A program made the translations under genes and the position numbers. Below the pieces are notes generated by a model. The model did no database searches. It was not told the origin of the DNA and saw nothing but the letters and a program-made list of their open reading frames with translations. Source: Fibrobacter sp. (lineage in GTDB: Bacteria; Fibrobacterota; Fibrobacteria; Fibrobacterales; Fibrobacteraceae). Taken from it: DNA of 64,000 nucleotides. Shown here one piece after another: positions 4,260 to 51,468 of this stretch. Position 1 is the stretch's first letter, and each line of letters begins with the position of its first letter. The DNA lies in NCBI GenBank assembly GCA_024399065.1, contig JAKSIB010000011.1:1-64000 (forward strand). The letters run 5' to 3'.

Positions 4260-5330
4260 TTATTCAGCGGCCATGGTCGAAGCGGGAAGTGTTTCGTCCA
4301 GGAAGTTGAAGATGATGTTGTAGGCGTTGTCGCGGACAGGTTTCTTGGAAAGGACGATATCGTGGAGGGCGCCGGGGATTTCGGCCATGGTGATCTGGGA
4401 GCCCAGTCGTGCGCCGTAGCGCTTGATGTCTTCCACGTTGAGGACGCCGTCGCAGCGGGTATATTCGTCGGCCCATTCGTCCTGATCGATGCTGCAGTCG
4501 CTATGCATCACGAGGATCGGGGTGTCCAGCTCCAGACCCTTCTGCACGAAGGCGTGTGCCTTGTGGATGGCGCGAACCCAGGCGAAGTTCACGGGGATGC
4601 TGTTGATAGTCTTGATGGTGGTATCGAATTCCCATTCGCCGCGGTACTGCTTGAGCAGGCTTTCAGCGTAGTTGGTATTTTCACCGCGGGGAACGCCGAA
4701 GCTCGGAAAGAACTGGCCCAGCACGGAAATGCCCGGGATGATCAGTTCGCGGGTGAGGAACTCGTAGTTCATTTCCAGGAAGGGGCTGTTCAGAACCACG
4801 GCGGAGAAGTCCTTGCCTTTTTCGCGGGCGTCCGCATACATGGTGGCGACGAGGCCGCCGGTACTGTGGCCGATAATTGCCACGGGAGCATCAGGGTGCT
4901 GGCGCTTCATTTGGGCGACGCAGGAATCCAGCTCGGGATAGTATTCCGCGATGTTGTGGACTTCACCGATGCGGTCGCCTTCTCGGAGGGAGCGGCCATA
5001 GTTGTGCAGATCGACGGCATAGAATGCGTAGCCTGCAGAGTCGGCCTTTTCAGCCATTTCCCGCTGGAAGTAGTAGTCGTTGAATCCGTGAATGTAGAGG
5101 ACGGATGCCTTGGGCTGAGCAGTCGCAGAATCAGCCGCAACGAAACTGCCGAAGGGGTATTCAACGATGGTGGCGTGGAAACTCGGGAACTGGGCGACGG
5201 GTTCGGTATCGAAACTGCGCGCAATGAAAGGTTCCCCCAGATAGGGATCCTTCACGGCGTCTTCTGCAACGGCATTTGCAGCCAGCAGAGACAAGCCCAA
5301 AAAATAAACCCAATTGCTCACCTTTACCAC
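4260..5330 (-). CDS. Secreted alpha/beta hydrolase (serine aminopeptidase / lysophospholipase-like)
   Basis: The protein of about 356 residues has an N-terminal hydrophobic segment ending ANAVAEDA, probably a signal peptide. The hydrolase_4-type fold shows the nucleophile elbow GHSTGG, a likely catalytic Asp after the strand LVMHSD, and a His in ALHDIVLS. The substrate cannot be read from sequence; lipid esters, acylated sugars or peptides are possible. No ATG start exists. TTG at 5348, GTG at 5330 and GTG at 5321 are alternatives, and 5330 is preferred because it keeps a lysine before the hydrophobic core. It is a single-gene unit with its own terminator. Confidence 0.85.
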   Translation of the reverse strand: MVKVSNWVYFLGLSLLAANAVAEDAVKDPYLGEPFIARSFDTEPVAQFPSFHATIVEYPFGSFVAADSATAQPKASVLYIHGFNDYYFQREMAEKADSAGYAFYAVDLHNYGRSLREGDRIGEVHNIAEYYPELDSCVAQMKRQHPDAPVAIIGHSTGGLVATMYADAREKGKDFSAVVLNSPFLEMNYEFLTRELIIPGISVLGQFFPSFGVPRGENTNYAESLLKQYRGEWEFDTTIKTINSIPVNFAWVRAIHKAHAFVQKGLELDTPILVMHSDCSIDQDEWADEYTRCDGVLNVEDIKRYGARLGSQITMAEIPGALHDIVLSKKPVRDNAYNIIFNFLDETLPASTMAAE

Positions 5331-5482
5331 GGAAAAGCAATATAACAAATTGAAAACTCTGAAAACTTACTTTTTTATCACATTTGCAAGTGGGGCTTAA
5401 GGGGACCGAAAAGAAGCTTTTTAAGTGGTTTGATTTGAAAGGAAATATGCGAATAACTATATTTATGCATAGAGGTATTAAT

Positions 5483-6943
5483 ATGGAATACAAAGTTAAA
5501 GATATCAACCTTGCCGCCTGGGGCCGCAAGGAACTGGACCTGGCCGAAACTGAAATGCCGGGCCTCATGGCTCTCCGCAAGGAATACGAAGGCAAGAAGC
5601 CTCTCGCTGGCGCACGCATCATGGGTTCTCTCCACATGACCGTGCAGACCGCTATCCTCATCGAAACTCTCGTTGACCTGGGCGCAGACGTTCGCTGGGT
5701 CTCCTGCAACATCTTCAGTACCCAGGACCATGCTGCCGCTGCAGTTGTCGTGGGCAAGAAGGGCACTGTGGAAAACCCGCAGGGTGTTCCTGTTTTCGCT
5801 TGGAAGGGCGAATCCTTGGAAGAATACTGGGAAAACACTGCCAAGGCTCTCGTATGGCCCGACGGCAAGACTGCAGACCTGATTGTGGACGACGGTGGCG
5901 ACGCTACCATGCTGGTGACCTGCGGTGCCGAGTTCGAAGAAGCAGGCAAGGTTCCTGAATTCAACCCGGAAACCGACTCCGAAGAATGGGGCGTGTTCCT
6001 CGCAACTTGCAAGAAGATTTTCGAAAAGGATCCGAAGCAGTGGACCCGCGCTCGCGAAACCCTCAAGGGTGTTTCCGAAGAAACCACTACCGGCGTGCAT
6101 CGCCTGTACCAGATGGCCAAGGAAGGCCGCCTGAAGTTCCCGGCCATCAACGTGAACGATTCCGTGACCAAGTCCAAGTTCGACAACCTCTACGGTTGCC
6201 GCCACTCCCTCATCGACGGCATCAACCGCGCTTCCGACGTGATGATGGCCGGCAAGATCGCTGTGGTCTGCGGCTACGGTGACGTGGGTAAGGGTTGTGC
6301 CCAGTCCCTCCGCGGTCAGGGCGCTCGCGTGATCGTTACTGAAGTGGACCCCATCTGCGCTCTCCAGGCTGTGATGGAAGGCTACGAAGTGAAGACTCTC
6401 GACGAAGTCGTTTCCGAGGCAGATATCTTTGTCACCACCACCGGTAACATCGGCATTATCTCCGCCGCTCAGATGAGCAAGATGAAGCATCGCGCCATCG
6501 TGGGCAACATCGGCCACTTCGACAACGAAATCGACATGGCTGGCCTCAAGAAGATTCCGGGCATCGTTCGCAACGAAATCAAGCCCCAGTACGATGAATG
6601 GATCTTCCCCGATGGCCACAGCATCCTCGTGCTCGCTGAAGGCCGCTTGCTGAACCTCGGCTGCGCTACCGGTCACCCCAGCTTCGTGATGTCCGCTAGC
6701 TTCACCAACCAGACCATCGCCCAGATCGACCTGTGGCTCAACGCTACCGGCAAGCAGACTGTGGCTGGCATCAAGTACGAAACCGGCGTCGTTTACACCT
6801 TGCCGAAGATCCTGGATGAAAAGGTTGCTCGCCTGCACCTCGAAAAGCTGGGCGTTCACCTGACTACCCTCACCCAGGCTCAGGCCGACTACATCGGCGT
6901 GAAGGTTGAAGGTCCGTACAAGGTGGACTTCTACCGTTACTAA
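5483..6943 (+). CDS. ahcY: Adenosylhomocysteinase
   Basis: This 486-residue cytoplasmic enzyme reversibly hydrolyses S-adenosylhomocysteine to adenosine and homocysteine, relieving product inhibition of methyltransferases. The substrate-binding part has [16 protein letters not shown] and the Cys/Asn region [14 protein letters not shown]. The NAD-binding Rossmann motif is GYGDVGKG, and the C-terminus ends in a lysine/tyrosine-containing tail ([10 protein letters not shown]). An in-frame extension begins further upstream, but ATG 5483 follows AGAGG and matches the usual N-terminus. No SAH riboswitch could be recognised in the 150-base leader. Confidence 0.97.
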
Positions 6944-38415: not shown

Positions 38416-39744
38416 TTACCTTTTTGCAGCTTCTGAAACTTCGCGGAAGGTAACGCCAGCCTTTTCGGCAACTTCCTTCACGCTTTCGAATTCGGGTTTA
38501 CACTTTTCGATGTCGCCCAGTTTGCACTTCTTAACTTTCACTGTTCCATAGGGAGTTTCTACGTCGGCAAAAGTCCGTCCCATACAGGTGCGGGTGACGG
38601 GATAACGACGGATGCCCACCGTATTCGTGTGACGCAAAATGGCGGTTTCCACCTGGGGAAGCTTTTCGCTATCCGCAAGAGCGTGAAGAACGACGGCCGG
38701 GCGGTTCTTCTTCATGTAGCACGGAACAAAGTAAACGTCCTTGGCTCCAGCTTCGAAAATCTTGTCCATGGCAAGACCCAGTTCTTCGGGACTCTGGTCA
38801 TCGATATTGCATTCCACCATGAAGACTTCATCACCCCCGCGATTTTCATCTTCAACACTTTCGATGATTTGGGCACGCAGGAAATTGGCTCGACCGAAAT
38901 CGCGTTTGCCGAGTCCGATGCCGGATTTCAAAATCTTGTAACTCACAGGAAGTTTTTCGCAGGTACGGATAGCGGCTACCACGCCGATTCCTGTGGGAGT
39001 TACCATCTCGCCTTTGGTATCTGTAATGTGGAGCGCAATGCCTGCGGATTCTGCAATGCTTGCCACCGCAGGAACAGGAATCGGGAGCATTCCATGCTGG
39101 GTCTGCACAAATCCGGAACCCTCGTTAAGGCCCGTCACCACCACTTGAGAAACGCCTTGAGTTTCCTGCAGGTCTTCTACCAAAATAGCCACCGCCATAA
39201 TATCCACGATGGAGTCAATGGCACCTACTTCGTGAAAATGGACATCTTCTACTGCAACGCCGTGAGCCTTCGCTTCGGCCTGGGCAATCATCAGAAAAAT
39301 TTTCTTGGCAAGGGCAAGGGCGTTCTGGGAAAGGGTACCATGGCTAGCCACATGTTCCAAGATACCGTAGCATTCCTTTAGATGTCGATGCTCGTGGGAG
39401 TGATGGTGTTCGTGACTGTGTTCATGGTTGTGGTGCTCATGCTCATGGTGGTGATCGGCACATTCCTCATGGGAATGTTCATGGTGATGTTCTACGTAGC
39501 ATCCTTCATGGGCGTGAACATGATCTGCGCTTTCTTCGCCATGATGGGTATGCACGTGAACATCAAAGGTCGCCCCGGCAATACTGTAAGAATTACCACG
39601 ACCGAAATGGCAGTGCATTCCCTCAAGATGCATGCTGTTGATGGCGGCATCCAGCTTTTCACGGGATGCGCCCAAATCCAGCAAGGCGGCAACAGTCATA
39701 TCGCCACTGATTCCACAAGATCCGTCCAGATAAAGATATTTCAT
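38416..39744 (-). CDS. larC: Nickel insertion protein LarC
   Basis: This 442-residue cytoplasmic protein inserts nickel, using CTP, into the pincer nucleotide to give the NPN cofactor (family knowledge). It starts MKYLYLDGSCGISGDM, has VEDVHFHEVGAIDSIVDI, and a C-terminal half (~270-440) of the LarC2 type (ECNIDDQSPEELG, VKKCKLGDIEKCKPE). It is a single uninterrupted frame; in Lactobacillus plantarum larC needs a frameshift. Residues 63-121 are exceptionally His-rich, a probable nickel-holding insert. It follows larB with only two bases between. Confidence 0.95.
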   Translation of the reverse strand: MKYLYLDGSCGISGDMTVAALLDLGASREKLDAAINSMHLEGMHCHFGRGNSYSIAGATFDVHVHTHHGEESADHVHAHEGCYVEHHHEHSHEECADHHHEHEHHNHEHSHEHHHSHEHRHLKECYGILEHVASHGTLSQNALALAKKIFLMIAQAEAKAHGVAVEDVHFHEVGAIDSIVDIMAVAILVEDLQETQGVSQVVVTGLNEGSGFVQTQHGMLPIPVPAVASIAESAGIALHITDTKGEMVTPTGIGVVAAIRTCEKLPVSYKILKSGIGLGKRDFGRANFLRAQIIESVEDENRGGDEVFMVECNIDDQSPEELGLAMDKIFEAGAKDVYFVPCYMKKNRPAVVLHALADSEKLPQVETAILRHTNTVGIRRYPVTRTCMGRTFADVETPYGTVKVKKCKLGDIEKCKPEFESVKEVAEKAGVTFREVSEAAKR

Positions 39745-39746
39745 AA

Positions 39747-40457
39747 TTACTTAATCCTCAGCATACGGCAAGCACTTACGGCGGCTCCAAAACCGTTGTC
39801 GATGTTCACCACGGTAACGCCCTCGGCGCAGGTATTCAGCATTGTTAGAAGTGGTGCGACACCTTGAAACGAGGCGCCGTAGCCAACGGATGTCGGCACT
39901 GCAATCACGGGTGCTTTTACGAGCCCAGCAATGACACCAGCCAGCGCCCCTTCCATTCCTGCCACGGCAATAACAACATCCGCCTTGCGAATTTCATCAA
40001 TTTTGGAAAGCAAACGATGGAGGCCGGCAATGCCAACATCATAATGTCGCGAAACCTTGGCTCCAAAAAATTCAGCGGTCATGGCAGCTTCTTCAGCGAT
40101 GGGCAAATCGGCTGTTCCCGCGCAGCAGACTGCGATGGTTCCGCCAAGTTTTCCTGATTTCTTTGAAGCGTTGGAATGATCACCCTTGACTGTTTTTATG
40201 GAGATGATTTTTGCAGTTTCGTTATAGCAAACTTGCGGCATTTCGCTTTTTACAAACTCGTACTGTTCGGCGCTACACTTGGTACCTAGAACAGCGCAGC
40301 CATTCTCCTTGAAGGTTTGGAGAATTTTCAGAAGTTGTTCCTTTGTTTTTCCGGCGCAGTAGATTGCCTCGGCTGTACCAGTACGTTTTTCACGGCTGAT
40401 ATCCAGCTTGGCGAAGCCAATGTCTTCATAGCGTTCATTTGCAAGAGTATTCTTCAT
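39747..40457 (-). CDS. larB: Pyridinium-3,5-biscarboxylic acid mononucleotide synthase LarB
   Basis: This 236-residue enzyme carboxylates the pyridinium ring of nicotinic acid adenine dinucleotide and hydrolyses it, the first step of NPN synthesis. It has the PurE-like C-terminal fold: GTIAVCCAGTADLPIAEEAA, VAGMEGALAGVIAGLV, PTSVGYGASFQGVAPLLTML, and NIDNGFGAAVSA. Length and motifs are typical. It lies 28 bases after tatC and directly before larC. Confidence 0.95.
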   Translation of the reverse strand: MKNTLANERYEDIGFAKLDISREKRTGTAEAIYCAGKTKEQLLKILQTFKENGCAVLGTKCSAEQYEFVKSEMPQVCYNETAKIISIKTVKGDHSNASKKSGKLGGTIAVCCAGTADLPIAEEAAMTAEFFGAKVSRHYDVGIAGLHRLLSKIDEIRKADVVIAVAGMEGALAGVIAGLVKAPVIAVPTSVGYGASFQGVAPLLTMLNTCAEGVTVVNIDNGFGAAVSACRMLRIK

Positions 40458-40485: not shown

Positions 40486-41400
40486 TTAGTTGGGTTTCCA
40501 CTTGTCTGCATTTCGCTCTGTTCCCACCTGGTAGGGGGATGAGATCTTTGTAAAGTCTACATCATCCTGGGAATCTTGATTTGCAGATTTCTGTGTCGCG
40601 GAATCTGAAATTGACGTTTCCGAACTTTCGGTTTTTGATTCCACGCGAACGGGGGAATTTTCTTCATTACATTCCTTGAACTGTTCGCCTTTATATTTTC
40701 GTGCAGCAAACAAACCCGCTTCAAAAAGTAGATAGGTAGGAGCGCCTAGAATCAGCTGGCTAATAATATCCGGCGGAGTCAGCAAAGCCGCCAACACAAG
40801 GATGGCCACCACTACGTAAGGGCGGGCATGGCAAACGGTTTCATAGTAAACAACGCCAGAGCGAATCAAGGCGTAAGTCACCAGCGGGAACTGGAACATG
40901 CATCCAAATGCAAGGGAAAGCCACAGCGCCAAGGTGACGATGTTTTCCACACCGAAAATTGGCTGTAGAGTTTCGCTTTCAAAACTCATGCCGAATCGCA
41001 CCACCAGCGGAAAGCAAATCCCCAGGCAGAACACCACGCCCGAAATAAAAAGCCCGCTGGTCATCCACACGATAGAACGAACAAACTTCCGTTCGTTTTC
41101 GTAAAGGCCCGGCAGCACGAACTTCCACAAGTTCCAGGCAATGTATGGAGAACAGATGACGCAATCCATAAGTGCCGCGATTTTTAGTTGCAACAGGAAC
41201 ACTTCCATTGGGGAAAAGTAATGGAGGGTGGCACCGCTCTGGGCAACAAGCTCTGCGCTGAACCAGTCAAGTACATGGGACGACAACAAAAACATCGGGA
41301 TAATCCCGATGCCTAGCGCCACAAAACAGTGAATCAGCGCCGTACGCAAGGCCTCCAAATGAGAGACCAACGTCTGTTCCTGATCAGCTTTCGAAGACAA
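40486..41400 (-). CDS. tatC: Sec-independent translocase protein TatC
   Basis: This 304-residue inner-membrane protein has six segments. The N-terminal cytosolic recognition region is SHLEALRTALIHC, and SPMEVFLLQLKIAALM follows. The last ~75 residues (~230-304) form a charged tail absent from many TatC proteins. TatC binds twin-arginine signal peptides. The start is a TTG (no ATG fits) nine bases after the tatA stop, with AGG nearby. No tatB is present. The adjacent Tat-signal DUF362 genes are natural candidates for cargo. Confidence 0.93.
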   Translation of the reverse strand: MSSKADQEQTLVSHLEALRTALIHCFVALGIGIIPMFLLSSHVLDWFSAELVAQSGATLHYFSPMEVFLLQLKIAALMDCVICSPYIAWNLWKFVLPGLYENERKFVRSIVWMTSGLFISGVVFCLGICFPLVVRFGMSFESETLQPIFGVENIVTLALWLSLAFGCMFQFPLVTYALIRSGVVYYETVCHARPYVVVAILVLAALLTPPDIISQLILGAPTYLLFEAGLFAARKYKGEQFKECNEENSPVRVESKTESSETSISDSATQKSANQDSQDDVDFTKISSPYQVGTERNADKWKPN

Positions 41401-41408
41401 GTCCGAAC

Positions 41409-41639
41409 CTATCTTTCGTCTTTCGTCTCTCGTCTTTCGTCTATTTTGGCTTCTGCTTCGCCGACTTTTTCCACAGTCTTCTGCAGATCTTCAGCTTCTT
41501 CCTTCAGGGCGTCCTTTGCCTTCTTGTATTCGTGCTGGGCACGGCCAAGAGAGCGGGCCAGTTCAGGAATGCGCTTGCCACCGAACAGCAGCAAAACCAC
41601 AACAACAATCAAGATGATTTCTGGAATTCCAAGAGACAT
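41409..41639 (-). CDS. tatA: Sec-independent translocase protein TatA
   Basis: This 76-residue protein has one membrane segment (~5-20), the hinge [16 protein letters not shown] and an amphipathic helix, typical of TatA, which forms the export pore. The C-terminus ([10 protein letters not shown]) is encoded by four tandem 7-base units. The start ATG follows CCGAGG. It is the first gene of the tatA-tatC-larB-larC unit. Confidence 0.93.
41413..41440. repeat. Tandem heptamer at the tatA/tatC boundary
   Basis: Four adjacent copies of TTTCGTC (one as TCTCGTC) lie inside the last codons of tatA and 13 bases before the tatC start. Because the unit is seven bases, a gain or loss of a copy would shift the tatA frame and move its stop relative to tatC. 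Confidence 0.75.
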
Positions 41640-41738: not shown

Positions 41739-42725
41739 TTAGACTTCCACCAGTTTGTACTTACGGGAACCCATCTTATGGTGTTCCATGGCGTCAAGCT
41801 GATGCAAACCTTCGCGGGATTCGATACGTTCCTTCAGGTCGGCAAGTTCCTTAGGCGGAAGCTTGTAAACCATGTCGATGCTAGCCTGGTCCACAGCCAA
41901 AATGTCGGTAGAAGCAAGGATACCGATATCGCGGCAGGTAGGTTCTGCAGCACTGGTGCCTGCACAGTCGCAGTCCACGGACATACGGCGCAGCACGTTG
42001 ATGAAGCACATTTTGCCCTTGAAATGATCGCAGGTTGCCTTGGCGGAGTCGCCCATCAGTTCCATGAACTTGGCGCCCATAATCCAGTCGGCAGAAGAAT
42101 TCACGTCGGAAGTATTCAAGTGGACTTCGCGCTTACCAATCTGGCCGCCGGCGCAACCGATGGCGATGTTCTTCATGGAGCCGCCGAAGCCGCCCATGGC
42201 ATGACCCTTGAAGTGGGTGAACACCACCATGGAATCGTAGTTCAGCATATGCTTGCCCACGTGAAGTTCCTTAAGCCAGTAACCGTCCTTCACAGGAATG
42301 GGAGTTTCGCCATCTTCGTCCATAATGTCCACCACGGTGAACTTGGTGAAGCCATTGACTTCCAGGGCCTTGCGGTGATCGGCGGTAGTATAGCGGCCGC
42401 CTTGATACAGGGTGTTGGTCTCTACGATGGTACTGTTGGGAATAGCCTTCTGCAAGGCTTCATCCCATTCGCGGGGAATAATGTTGGGACCGTTGGGTTC
42501 GCCGGTATGGAGCTTGATGGCCACCTTGCCAGAGATGTTCTGCTTCACCTTTTCGTAAAGTTTCAGAACGCCAGCGGCACTGAGATCCTTGGTAAAATAG
42601 ACGGTAGACACCTTGTCCTCCTCAGAAGTTTTTTCGGGTGCAGAGCCGGAAGCACTGGCGCAATTAGCAAGACCAGCCACAGCAACGGCACCCGCAGAAG
42701 CCTTCAGAAAATCACGACGATCCAT
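41739..42725 (-). CDS. Tat-signal DUF362 protein, copy 1
   Basis: This 328-residue protein has a twin-arginine signal (MDRRDFLK, hydrophobic core to ~25, possible atypical lipobox LANC). DUF362 follows. Conserved features shared with copy 2 are His117-Arg118, THFKGH (His171, His175), GGFGGSMKN with Lys185, His202, and CxC (Cys252, Cys254) with Cys264. His117, His175, Lys185 and His202 have the order and near spacing of LarA His108, His174, Lys184 and His200 (LarA positions from memory). DUF362 proteins are otherwise of unknown function, sometimes linked to Fe-S. RBS AGAGG; a terminator follows. Confidence 0.9.
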   Translation of the reverse strand: MDRRDFLKASAGAVAVAGLANCASASGSAPEKTSEEDKVSTVYFTKDLSAAGVLKLYEKVKQNISGKVAIKLHTGEPNGPNIIPREWDEALQKAIPNSTIVETNTLYQGGRYTTADHRKALEVNGFTKFTVVDIMDEDGETPIPVKDGYWLKELHVGKHMLNYDSMVVFTHFKGHAMGGFGGSMKNIAIGCAGGQIGKREVHLNTSDVNSSADWIMGAKFMELMGDSAKATCDHFKGKMCFINVLRRMSVDCDCAGTSAAEPTCRDIGILASTDILAVDQASIDMVYKLPPKELADLKERIESREGLHQLDAMEHHKMGSRKYKLVEV

Positions 42726-42739
42726 AACGACCTCTTACA

Positions 42740-43747
42740 TTACACTTCGATAATACGATACTTGCGATTGCCCATCTTCAAAGCTTCCATTGCAGGGAGC
42801 TGATGAAGTCCTTCGCGACTTTCAATGCGTTCCTTGATATCCTTCAGTTCGCCAATGGGCAGCTTGTAAACCATGTCTACGCTGGCCTGGTCCACAGCGA
42901 GAATATCGGTGGAAGCGAGAATACCGATGTCGCGGCAAGTGGGTTCGGCAGCGCCAACGCCCGCACAGTCGCAGTCCACGGACATACGGCGCAGCACATT
43001 AATAAAGCACATCTTGCCCTTAAAGTGATTGACGGTTGCCTTGCCGGATTCAGCCATGGCTTCCATGAAGCGCTTGCCGCTGTTGCTCCACTTGGGGTAA
43101 AGTTCCGGCTTTGCATTGTAATCCGGATCTTCCATCTTTTCGTGAATCATCTTCTTGCCCACATTGGCGTCGGCACAGCCGATGGCGATGTTCTTGAGGG
43201 AACCGCCGAAACCACCCATGGTATGGCCCTTGAAGTGGGTCAGCACCACCATGGAATCGTAATTCACGATATGGCCGCCCATGCTCATTTCCTTGAAGTG
43301 CTTGCCGCCAGGAACAGGGAGCATCACCGTACCTTCTTCGTCCATGATGTCCACGGGGCAGAAAGTCCAGCCGTTTACCTTCAAAGTCTCGCGATGCTTT
43401 TCGGTAGTATCGCGGTCGCTGGGATGGTAGTAAGTGTTGGTTTCCACAATGTTGGAATTGGGAATCAGGGCCTGCACAGCCTTCACCCATTCGCGGGGCA
43501 AAATGTTGGGGCCGTTCTTTTCACCGGTGTGAACCTTGATGGCCACCTTGCCGGAAATATTCTGGTTCACCTTGTTGTACAACTTGATGAGACCTTCGGC
43601 AGAAAGATCCTTGGTGAAGTAGACGTTGGAAACATCCTTGCCGGCTTCCTTCACTTCCTGGTTCTTGGGCTTGCCAAAAACGGGAGTAGCCATGGCGCTG
43701 ATCAAAGCAGCAGAGCCTACAGTCTTTATAAAATCACGACGATCCAT
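42740..43747 (-). CDS. Tat-signal DUF362 protein, copy 2
   Basis: This 335-residue paralogue of the downstream gene has a clear twin-arginine signal (MDRRDFIKTVGSAALISAMA, cleavage near VFG). The pattern His118-Arg119, His175, Lys185, His202 and Cys259/261/271 is fully kept. It differs by an ~11-residue insert around 205-220. The two are tandem duplicates and possibly form a heteromer. The start codon directly follows the stop of the 99-residue membrane protein, with AAGGTGG upstream. This indicates tight coupling. Confidence 0.9.
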   Translation of the reverse strand: MDRRDFIKTVGSAALISAMATPVFGKPKNQEVKEAGKDVSNVYFTKDLSAEGLIKLYNKVNQNISGKVAIKVHTGEKNGPNILPREWVKAVQALIPNSNIVETNTYYHPSDRDTTEKHRETLKVNGWTFCPVDIMDEEGTVMLPVPGGKHFKEMSMGGHIVNYDSMVVLTHFKGHTMGGFGGSLKNIAIGCADANVGKKMIHEKMEDPDYNAKPELYPKWSNSGKRFMEAMAESGKATVNHFKGKMCFINVLRRMSVDCDCAGVGAAEPTCRDIGILASTDILAVDQASVDMVYKLPIGELKDIKERIESREGLHQLPAMEALKMGNRKYRIIEV

Positions 43748-44047
43748 TTAAGCCACCTTATGGAAACGACCCTTGGGGTCTTTAATGAGGAGCATGGCAA
43801 GCCAAATCACAAGGCCAAATGCCACAGCGGAGAAACCCAGGAAGGCGTCATTCAGCATGTCGCCTGCAGCCGGGGTGAAAAATTCAGCACGAAGTTCTGC
43901 ATATTCAAAAATGGCATCCACGAACCACATGAGGGATGCGCCCCAGTACATGTAGCACAAGGGAGAAAGATGCATCTTGTTTTCGACATCGCGGTACCAA
44001 AGAGCGGTGCAGATAATCGCCGCAAAAACAGTGATGAGAAGGGTCAT
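43748..44047 (-). CDS. Small three-segment membrane protein
   Basis: This 99-residue protein has hydrophobic segments at ~1-18, 30-50 and 67-88 and a basic C-terminus (KGRFHKVA). It has aromatic-rich LSPLCYMYWGASLMWFVDAI. It is not a recognised family. Its ATG overlaps the TAA of the upstream gene, and its stop touches the DUF362 start. It may anchor or supply electrons to the exported DUF362 proteins; this is inferred from coupling only. Confidence 0.8.
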   Translation of the reverse strand: MTLLITVFAAIICTALWYRDVENKMHLSPLCYMYWGASLMWFVDAIFEYAELRAEFFTPAAGDMLNDAFLGFSAVAFGLVIWLAMLLIKDPKGRFHKVA

Positions 44048-44442
44048 TACTTACCTGCCTTTACTTCTGCAGGAACAGCCTTGTGGAACTTGCTGCGGAC
44101 AGTCATGAGAGCGGCCCAAGCCACCGTAACGAGGCCAGCCATGGATGTGCCCACGGTAGCAACCTCGTGCCACATCTGACTCATGGCTTCGGGGCTGGAA
44201 GCCGCAGTCAAAAACGGATAAAAGGCCTGCAGTTCGCCGTGCCAGACATGTTCAAAAGCCAACAGAACAGAACCGCCCCAAAGCATCTTGGAAAGAACCT
44301 TCAGATTCTTGCAGACAGCCTGCTTCTTGGTAGCAACCTGAAGATCAGCACCCTGCTTGGCAGACTTGTCGGTCTGTTCCAAAACTATGGTGGTGACGGT
44401 GGTAACGATGGCTTCTGCCATGGGGGCGATAAAACAGCACAT
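44047..44442 (-). CDS. Small membrane protein, first gene of the DUF362 unit
   Basis: This 131-residue protein has segments around 1-22, 50-65 and 95-115, and a histidine pair in AFEHVWHGELQ that could bind a metal or heme. It is not a recognised family. The start has AAAGAGG eight bases upstream and lies about 45 bases after the MerR-style promoter at 44486-44516. It shares the last base of TAA with the next ATG. Confidence 0.82.
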   Translation of the reverse strand: MCCFIAPMAEAIVTTVTTIVLEQTDKSAKQGADLQVATKKQAVCKNLKVLSKMLWGGSVLLAFEHVWHGELQAFYPFLTAASSPEAMSQMWHEVATVGTSMAGLVTVAWAALMTVRSKFHKAVPAEVKAGK

Positions 44443-44556: not shown

Positions 44557-45393
44557 CTATTTCACCAAGGCTTCGTTCAAGCTTCCGGTACGGTAGCCTC
44601 GTTCATCCAAGGAAATTTCCTTAAAACCAAGATTTGTAAAACAGGAACGAATCTCAGCCTGATTTTTGTAGAAAAGCGGGAACTGGTCCGGAAGGATTTC
44701 TATGCTAGCCATATAGGTTTCTGCAGCAGGCGATTTTTGCGGAACAAGACGGCAACGAACTCGATATTGAACAAAACCCAAATCCTGCAGATACTGCTCG
44801 GCCCGCTCCACCAGCCGCAATTTTTCTTCTGTAATCTGTTCTCCGTAAGGAATGCGGCTGGCAAGGCAGGCAAACGAGGGCTTGCTCGCCGTCGGGAGCC
44901 CAAGTTCCCGGGACAACGTGCGGATGCCTGCCTTGGTGAGGCCCGCCTCACGGAGCGGGCTCTTCACGTTCAGTTCCGCAATCGCCTTCAATCCCGGGCG
45001 GTAATCTCCAAGGTCATCCACATTGGAGCCTTCACAAACTGCAGGAATCCCATGCTCCGCGGCCGCCCCGATGATGGCCTTAAAAATCGAACGCTTGCAC
45101 ACATAGCAACGGTCAGGAGGATTCTCCCGAAAGCCGTCCACATCCATCTCGTTAAAATCCAGGACCAAATGGAGAATGCCTTCTGCCTTGCAAAAATCCA
45201 GAGCCTCCTGAATTTCGCGGCCAGGAACCACCCTGGACTTTATCGTAACGGCAACCGCATTCTCTCCCAGCACATCATGAGCCACCTTCAACAGAAACGT
45301 AGAATCCACGCCGGCAGAATAAGCCACGGCAACCTTGCCGAGACTTCTCAACTGGCATTTCAACAACTCGAATTTCTGATGCAGTTCATCCAT
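44557..45393 (-). CDS. larE: ATP-dependent sulfur transferase LarE
   Basis: This 278-residue cytoplasmic enzyme adenylates the pyridinium nucleotide and transfers sulfur to form the two thiocarboxylates of the pincer. The PP-loop is YSAGVDSTFLL (usually SGGVDS), with a CYVCKR pair. Cys176 in FACLASRIPYG coincides with the sacrificial cysteine position of the L. plantarum enzyme (from memory). ATG 45393 is preferred over TTG 45399. It is driven from promoter A and is separate from the next gene. Confidence 0.93.
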   Translation of the reverse strand: MDELHQKFELLKCQLRSLGKVAVAYSAGVDSTFLLKVAHDVLGENAVAVTIKSRVVPGREIQEALDFCKAEGILHLVLDFNEMDVDGFRENPPDRCYVCKRSIFKAIIGAAAEHGIPAVCEGSNVDDLGDYRPGLKAIAELNVKSPLREAGLTKAGIRTLSRELGLPTASKPSFACLASRIPYGEQITEEKLRLVERAEQYLQDLGFVQYRVRCRLVPQKSPAAETYMASIEILPDQFPLFYKNQAEIRSCFTNLGFKEISLDERGYRTGSLNEALVK

Positions 45394-45438
45394 TTTCAAA
45401 AACCTGGAATTTTCAAAACCTTTAAAAAACGCCTCTTA

Positions 45439-50016: not shown

Positions 50017-51468
50017 TCACTTTGCGCCGAGGAAATCGAAGCCGGCTTCTTCAATGGCCTTCTTCAATTCCGCCTCGTCCACCGTACCTTCGATGGTGAG
50101 AAGGTTCTTGCCCACATCAGCTTCGGCGTGAATAACTCCGGGGAGAGCGGTGGCAGCCTTTTCCACACACATTTTGCAGTGGTTGCAGCTCATACCCTTC
50201 ACGGTGTATTCCTTTACCCTGGAAGTTTCAGAATCCTTTTGGATCTTGCTCTTCTTCGGGAGTTTGGTGTAGATCATGAGCAAAGCGAGAACGCCTGCCA
50301 TCACATAATCAAATACGCCCAAGGCTTCTGCGCCGGCACAATGTTCAGACATACCGCTAGGAATCATTGCGGAGAGGAAGGTGTCCATCATAAAGGTATC
50401 CACCACCCAACCGAAGAACAATGCGCCGCCAGCAATGGTGATCAGGTATGCGACCAAGGTGCGCTTGCCAAAAGCCTTACCCACAACCATCATAGATGCG
50501 ATACTAGTTGCAGGACCAGCCATCAGCAAAACAAGTGCTGCGCCCGGAGTAATTCCCTTTGCCACCAATGCCAATGCCAGAGGAATGGAGCCCGTAGCAC
50601 AAGTGTACATAGGCATAGCCAACAGCAACACGGCAATCATGCAGAGGAACGGGTATTCACGGAGAGCCAAGAAGAAATCGTTGGGAATGAATGCAGCAAT
50701 CAATGCGCCCAGCACAAGACCAATCATGAGCCACTTACTTACATTGGCAACCATGTCCACTAAGCCATAACGGAAGGTTTCCAGAATCTTGCCGCCGATG
50801 GTCTTGGGGATTTCGCGATCTTCGCAATCGTCATCGCCACAGCCGCACTTGATCTTTCCGCAACCGCAGTGATCATCCTTACAACCGCAATGATCGCCGT
50901 CGTCATCGTCGTGATCGTGGTCGCCACATTCGCAGTGATCGTCGTGATCATGGTCGCCACATTCGCAATGGTCGTGATCGTGGTCGTGGCCACCGCAGCT
51001 GCAGTGTTCATCAACGCAAACGGCCTTGGCGTCTGCAGCAATTTCGTTTTCACCCTTCGTTGCAAAGTTCGTCACCACGCCGCCAAACAGTGCCGTAACA
51101 AAGGCCGCAATGGGGCGCAAAATTGCGAAAGGCAAACCCAGCAAAGAGTAGGTTGCCAAAATGGAATCCACCCCCGTCGCCGGAGTAGAAATCAAGAAGG
51201 AAACGCTGGCGCCCTTGCTGGCACCTTCCCTGCGGAGAGCCACAGCGGTAGGAATCACGCCACAGCTGCAAATGGGAAGCGGCACGCCAAAAAGGGCCGC
51301 CCACAAGCTAGACTTAAAAGTGGGTTTGGAAATTTTCGGAATGTACAGGGATTGCGGAAGCCATACGTGAATAATGCCTGCCAGCAAAAAACCGAGCAGC
51401 AAGAACGGGGCCATTTCCGCAAACAATGTTATAAATTCAGAAACAAAAGTCGATACGATTTCCATCAT
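50017..51468 (-). CDS. SO_0444-family Cu/Zn efflux permease with HMA domain
   Basis: This 483-residue inner-membrane permease of the DUF318/ArsP-like type has two blocks of four segments (~8-145 and ~225-385), each with a cysteine motif: PLPICSCGVIP and MYTCATGSIP. The cytoplasmic loop ~150-215 is packed with His, Cys and Asp (GHDHDHDHCECGDHDHDDHC and similar). A C-terminal HMA domain (~405-480) has GMSCNHCKMC. It should export Cu, Zn or a related soft metal. It is directly after an ArsR gene, in the same operon. Confidence 0.9.
   Translation of the reverse strand: MMEIVSTFVSEFITLFAEMAPFLLLGFLLAGIIHVWLPQSLYIPKISKPTFKSSLWAALFGVPLPICSCGVIPTAVALRREGASKGASVSFLISTPATGVDSILATYSLLGLPFAILRPIAAFVTALFGGVVTNFATKGENEIAADAKAVCVDEHCSCGGHDHDHDHCECGDHDHDDHCECGDHDHDDDDGDHCGCKDDHCGCGKIKCGCGDDDCEDREIPKTIGGKILETFRYGLVDMVANVSKWLMIGLVLGALIAAFIPNDFFLALREYPFLCMIAVLLLAMPMYTCATGSIPLALALVAKGITPGAALVLLMAGPATSIASMMVVGKAFGKRTLVAYLITIAGGALFFGWVVDTFMMDTFLSAMIPSGMSEHCAGAEALGVFDYVMAGVLALLMIYTKLPKKSKIQKDSETSRVKEYTVKGMSCNHCKMCVEKAATALPGVIHAEADVGKNLLTIEGTVDEAELKKAIEEAGFDFLGAK

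Follow-up and report, generated by a model that had tools for sequence, protein, structure and literature searches.

In a Fibrobacter sp., a rumen-type bacterium, an operon encoding LarB, LarC and LarE together with two DUF362 proteins and the translocase subunits TatA and TatC probably makes and exports DUF362-family enzymes that depend on the nickel-pincer nucleotide (NPN), with redox or hydride chemistry likelier than racemisation. A rare cofactor, NPN holds its nickel in a pincer and contains a metal-carbon bond. To our knowledge, the only established users are LarA-type enzymes. Approximately 15% of genomes, cyanobacteria among them, were reported to carry larBCE without larA, with the NPN-using protein unidentified (PMC11796402), and a protein of a fold distinct from that of LarA was expected to fill this role (PMC11796402). 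Our evidence favours a different answer, namely a known sister family that has the LarA fold and shares the same lysine and histidine residues. The DUF362 pair is a strong candidate for the NPN user of a genome that makes NPN and has no LarA, because the two proteins are encoded in an NPN operon, no known user is present, and they combine a LarA-type fold with the cofactor-attachment residues.

The window analysed, a stretch of 64,000 nucleotides, belongs to a genome that is 99.1% complete. On its minus strand the genes follow the order LarE, sm2, sm1, DUF362 b, DUF362 a, TatA, TatC, LarB and LarC (Table 1). Cofactor genes had been noted beside the DUF362 pair in a preliminary description of the sequence, and family searches found LarB, LarC and LarE there, all three above equivalog cut-offs, as expected of an NPN biosynthesis locus. 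LarC carries a long, histidine-rich insertion at approximately residues 60-120 that may hold nickel. Exactly two DUF362 genes were found in the source genome, both in this operon, and no Lar_N match was found in that 99.1%-complete assembly. The small membrane proteins sm1 and sm2 had no Pfam or NCBIfam match; sm1 occurs at the locus of some relatives and sm2 is located on the upstream side of DUF362 in most relatives whose locus is complete, and the two may anchor the enzyme or otherwise serve it.

Table 1. Features of the NPN operon and its surroundings in the window.
Feature	Coordinates	Strand	Basis and remarks
LarC, nickel insertion	38416..39744	-	TIGR00299, NF052512, PF01969 (1e-119); LarC1 and LarC2 within a single frame; His-rich insert
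LarB, NPN biosynthesis	39747..40457	-	NF033503, 281 bits (cut-off 175)
TatC	40486..41400	-	TIGR00945, 163 bits; PF00902; sole TatC found in the genome (G000)
TatA (76 aa)	41409..41639	-	Open reading frame; assigned by TatA-type sequence and place before TatC
DUF362 protein a (P0001, 328 aa)	41739..42725	-	PF04015, E 1.1e-39; TAT_signal, 8.5e-6; Tat signal MDRRDFLK; H117, H171, H175, K185, H202, C252/C254/C264
P0001 His175 to Lys185 codons (HAMGGFGGSMK), LarA-like segment	42171..42203	-	Read from the sequence; aligned with LarA
DUF362 protein b (P0002, 335 aa)	42740..43747	-	PF04015, E 1.9e-40; paralogue of P0001
sm1, small membrane protein (99 aa)	43748..44047	-	Hydrophobic segments; gene abuts DUF362 b
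sm2, small membrane protein (131 aa)	44047..44442	-	
LarE, sulfur transferase	44557..45399	-	TIGR00268, 300 bits (cut-off 150)
SO_0444-type Cu/Zn efflux transporter	50017..51468	-	CopZ-like domain at the C-terminus; lies roughly 5 kb away from the operon

The two DUF362 proteins are 65% identical in alignment, and both match the PF04015 profile over its full length (137 and 139.5 bits against a cut-off of 24; profile positions 1-200 of 200). MDRRDF(L/I)K at the start of each protein is a twin-arginine signal. P0001 reaches 25.9 bits with the TAT_signal model (cut-off 22.7) and is a predicted Tat substrate; P0002 has RRDFIK, yet its TAT_signal score of 10.7 bits lies below the cut-off. A sequence search of the PDB gave no relevant match.

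The suggestion that DUF362 is a remote relative of LarA is backed both by sequence profiles and by the predicted fold. Profile-profile comparison of DUF362 with LarA gave 94.8% (E 5e-8) and placed His175, Lys185 and His202 on LarA residues, in comparison with less than 0.5% for the controls LarB, LarC, LarE and TatC; a shallower hhalign comparison, built from three sequences of LarA and nine to twelve of DUF362, gave 5-8%. The Pfam Lar_N model matches P0001 at residues 116-194 in the register of the motif, at a score below the cut-off (E 0.005), and neither P0001 (16.4 bits) nor P0002 (12.9 bits) reaches the 23.3 bits for membership in Lar_N (PF09861). Two proteins from the phylum of the window genome, G040:C77 and G060:C186, score above the curated thresholds for DUF362 as well as for Lar_N along one shared stretch. 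Judged by these sequence comparisons, the LarA-like motif in DUF362 is real and marks homology. An AlphaFold2 model of P0001 (11 sequences, pTM 0.76, mean pLDDT 71) clearly matched LarA-type enzymes only, and not another fold: the best 12 PDB entries for the predicted structure were all LarA or LarA-like (Z 12.3-13.9; VIA Z of 13.9 to 9eia and 12.4 to 5huq), the next unrelated fold was that of methyltransferases (Z 5.1), and Foldseek gave an E of 2e-6. The part of the model that aligns with LarA amounts to approximately 200 residues, the LarA chains being 393-480 residues long; pLDDT is below 50 for residues 190-214, a segment containing His202. The LarA C-terminal domain is absent, with P0001 being 328 aa long including its signal and not matching any family of that domain. 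The relation itself is already on record and not new, since both families are placed in Pfam clan CL0471, the DUF362-like superfamily (PMC11770544; PMC7955657), and a paper covering the LarA enzyme family and DUF362 treats DUF362 merely as an outgroup. The operon context, on the other hand, appears to be new.

Most of the residue pattern proposed in the preliminary description was recovered. P0001 has the His-Arg pair at 117-118, and in P0002 it is shifted by one residue towards the C-terminus, His175-x9-Lys185 and His202 are in both proteins with 17 residues from Lys to His, and the fetched LarA proteins have H-x9-K with the His at K+16, the spacing that had been quoted for LarA. The segment HAMGGFGGSMKNIAIG aligns in the stated register with LarA 'PHFMAGFSGGYK...H'. 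A match of four active-site residues had been claimed, and it held for three: MAFFT and hhalign both align His175 and Lys185 with the catalytic His174 and the cofactor-binding Lys184 of LarA, and His202 aligns in sequence with the nickel ligand His200 (Lys+17 vs Lys+16). His117 is not the counterpart of LarA His108, a role for which it was ruled out on sequence alignment; its place there is in the helix that comes after, close to LarA 'TPEE'. LarA His108 belongs to a G-x-H type motif after a strand and is invariant in 18 fetched LarA and LarA-like proteins; DUF362 has no His at the aligned position, where P0001 reads ETNTLYQGGR. LarA-like proteins at L150, L151, L152 and L153, whose hosts have LarB, show a longer gap, H-x13-K (HTSFHGPLESGIHK), and in two of the host genomes (G079 and G090) neither LarA nor DUF362 was matched at the applied Pfam threshold.

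His175, Lys185, Asn186 and His202 are kept in nearly all DUF362 proteins examined. His73, Arg111, His117, His171 and a CDC motif are confined to one DUF362 subfamily that includes the window pair, and the extra His residues are invariant within it. In LarA, a catalytic His pair, a Lys-cofactor link and a His nickel ligand have been described, and homologues with one catalytic His exist (PMC12611868). The window pair could be LarA-type enzymes that use NPN to racemise or epimerise hydroxy acids or sugars outside the cytoplasm, with His73, His117 or His171 as the second acid/base. The LarA fold with three catalytic or cofactor residues, the extra invariant His of this subfamily and the precedent of single-catalytic-His LarA homologues (PMC12611868) speak for such a reading, but we consider it unlikely in view of the missing His108 equivalent, the missing LarA C-terminal domain and the ties of relatives to iron-sulfur electron carriers. 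These three features are also the reason for favouring redox chemistry over racemisation. The iron-sulfur partners are proteins of the NapH/NapG type at L114 and of the NapH type at L009, together with the ferredoxin-type Cys motifs that DUF362 proteins of Bacteroides carry.

Overall, the window proteins resemble the NPN-dependent racemases and epimerases of the LarA/Lar_N family (PF09861, DUF2088) in fold (Z 12-14), in H-x9-K followed by a His 16-17 residues on, and in the LarB/LarC/LarE neighbourhood, and differ in lacking the His108 equivalent and the C-terminal domain, in a Lar_N score below the cut-off, and in having a Tat-type signal with TatAC alongside. With DUF362 at large they share the full-length match (137-140 bits) and the H/K/H residues; their branch is set apart by the Tat signal, by having no fused ferredoxin and by its place in an NPN operon. 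No cofactor was assigned to the DUF362 family in the literature found.

The association of DUF362 with NPN synthesis extends to other genomes. LarB served as the marker of NPN synthesis in the counts, with the Pfam families DUF362 and Lar_N scored per genome, because several Bacteroidota have LarC without adjacent LarB or LarE; LarC alone was dropped as a marker. Within the window family (66 genomes, none with LarA), DUF362 occurred in 20/20 genomes with LarB and in 1/46 without it, the exception being at a contig end. The corresponding counts were 52/64 vs 3/57 in a sample of the phylum (121 genomes) and 10/12 vs 21/186 in Bacteroidota (198 genomes). Fisher tests, which ignore shared ancestry and are a guide only, gave p-values of 5e-16, 8e-19 and 1e-7, respectively. 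The three phylum genomes with DUF362 and no LarB comprise one with a contig end, one with LarC and one that is 77% complete. Twelve LarB-positive genomes of the phylum sample had neither DUF362 nor LarA by Pfam, and weak LarA-like matches were seen in 3 of the 12. Two of the 14 genomes used as controls, those of Synechococcus elongatus and Haloferax volcanii, have LarC and DUF362 and no LarA.

DUF362 and lar genes lie side by side in about six lineages and with different DUF362 subfamilies, a recurrence that is more telling than the co-occurrence p-values. These lineages are Fibrobacter with g4, G093 (L063), g31 (L194 and L196), G190 (L114), G265/G269 (L116/L115) and L009; G190, G265 and G269 are Bacteroidota, and the order in G190 is DUF362-NapH-NapG-LarC-LarE-LarB. 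In all LarC-carrying genomes of Fibrobacter or g4, DUF362 and TatC share one neighbourhood with LarB and LarC, joined by LarE except at L054 and L058, both cut by contig ends. At L050 the LarBCE genes are inverted and still adjacent to DUF362. The operon may have been gained and lost as one block within Fibrobacter. TatC was found in 14/14 Fibrobacter genomes with DUF362 and in 21/35 others, and no exclusive link between Tat and the operon emerged, with 21 Fibrobacter genomes carrying TatC and no DUF362. Matches of the DUF362 model at L009:14807, L013:5838, L069:6275, L072:4903, L076:2340 and L067:1714/2566 were rejected as NapH/NapG-type polyferredoxins that match because of fused ferredoxin domains.

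A different explanation is that DUF362 has the LarA fold and either binds some other cofactor or needs none at all, with Lys185 and the His residues serving a general DUF362 reaction and the NPN enzyme of the genome having escaped recognition. DUF362 proteins of Bacteroidota without LarB and LarC, Bacteroides relatives of the window pair among them, keep H/K/H equally, so that the triad alone is not diagnostic of NPN; the LarB-positive genomes with neither LarA nor DUF362 point the same way. The Bacteroides ferredoxin-domain proteins (L010-L012) even have the same K-H-N-R-H-H-K-H-K-N-H-C-D-C residue set as the window pair, and differ by an insert with ferredoxin-type Cys motifs and the absence of a Tat signal; LarB and LarC are missing from G123, to which L012 belongs. 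However, Lar_N was likewise found without LarB (11/17 of the Lar_N-positive Bacteroidota genomes, including a full-strength match in G291), and H/K/H in LarB-negative genomes thus does not single out DUF362. Given also that different DUF362 subfamilies repeatedly adjoin LarB, LarC and LarE, and that the association with LarB is complete among the 20 genomes of the window family, we regard this explanation as distinctly improbable. The Lar_N proteins of LarB-negative Bacteroidota could reflect NPN salvage, incomplete genomes or NPN-free LarA proteins.

For the preferred reading, in which this operon provides for both the production and the export of DUF362-family NPN enzymes, we infer NPN binding, loading before export and the reaction type along the following lines. 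LarB, LarE and LarC would build NPN in the cytoplasm, where the folded DUF362 apoprotein would take it up in a LarA-type pocket, with Lys185 as the putative covalent link, His202 as the fourth nickel ligand and His175 as an acid/base. Tat carries folded, cofactor-loaded proteins. The NPN-loaded enzyme could then pass folded through the adjacent TatAC and work in the periplasm, where it would more likely act on a hydroxy compound by hydride or redox chemistry than carry out simple lactate racemisation. Alternatively, DUF362 might handle or store nickel or NPN as a non-catalytic carrier or chaperone. The invariant His and Cys residues and the nickel pathway encoded by the operon are in keeping with a carrier, but export by Tat would separate it from cytoplasmic NPN synthesis, and the genome offers no LarA or further DUF362 as a recipient, which makes such a role very improbable.

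If the proposal that the window pair are NPN enzymes is true, a cofactor would be assigned to a large protein family of unknown function. In the literature searched, which left most subscription papers outside, neither DUF362 as an NPN user nor an exported version in Fibrobacter was found. More tentatively, and with rather more doubt than confidence, the DUF362 superfamily could be the missing NPN user of larBCE-positive, larA-negative genomes in general, including those of cyanobacteria and haloarchaea, with the Fibrobacter branch as the first exported NPN enzyme, served by its own Tat translocase and a redox enzyme rather than a racemase.

Several further observations were made at the lar loci. 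L009 (G121) is from a metagenome-assembled genome labelled Alphaproteobacteria, and its DUF362 is approximately 60% identical to that of Fibrobacter and accompanied by LarC, LarE and LarB, which may reflect either horizontal transfer or wrong labelling of the bin. LarC is apart from LarB and LarE at the Bacteroidota loci L117-L120 and L122-L126, several times beside priA-like or kdtA-like genes (named by eye), and LarC of G221 may serve another role, since no LarB above the cut-off was found in that genome. A CbiM-type cobalt/nickel transporter gene, confirmed by Pfam, lies alongside LarBCE at L009:16122-17024, as do genes of this type recognised by sequence likeness at L079:5456-6286, L083:11204-12034, L207:7337-8131 and L063:4922-5920. 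Tat-type aldo/keto reductases adjoin LarB/LarC at L067:226-5243, L009:10932-12236 and L121:1-944 and 4671-5621; those of L067 and L009 carry a ferredoxin domain, L067 also has NapH and NapG-type proteins, and this reductase is possibly a second protein tied to the NPN pathway.
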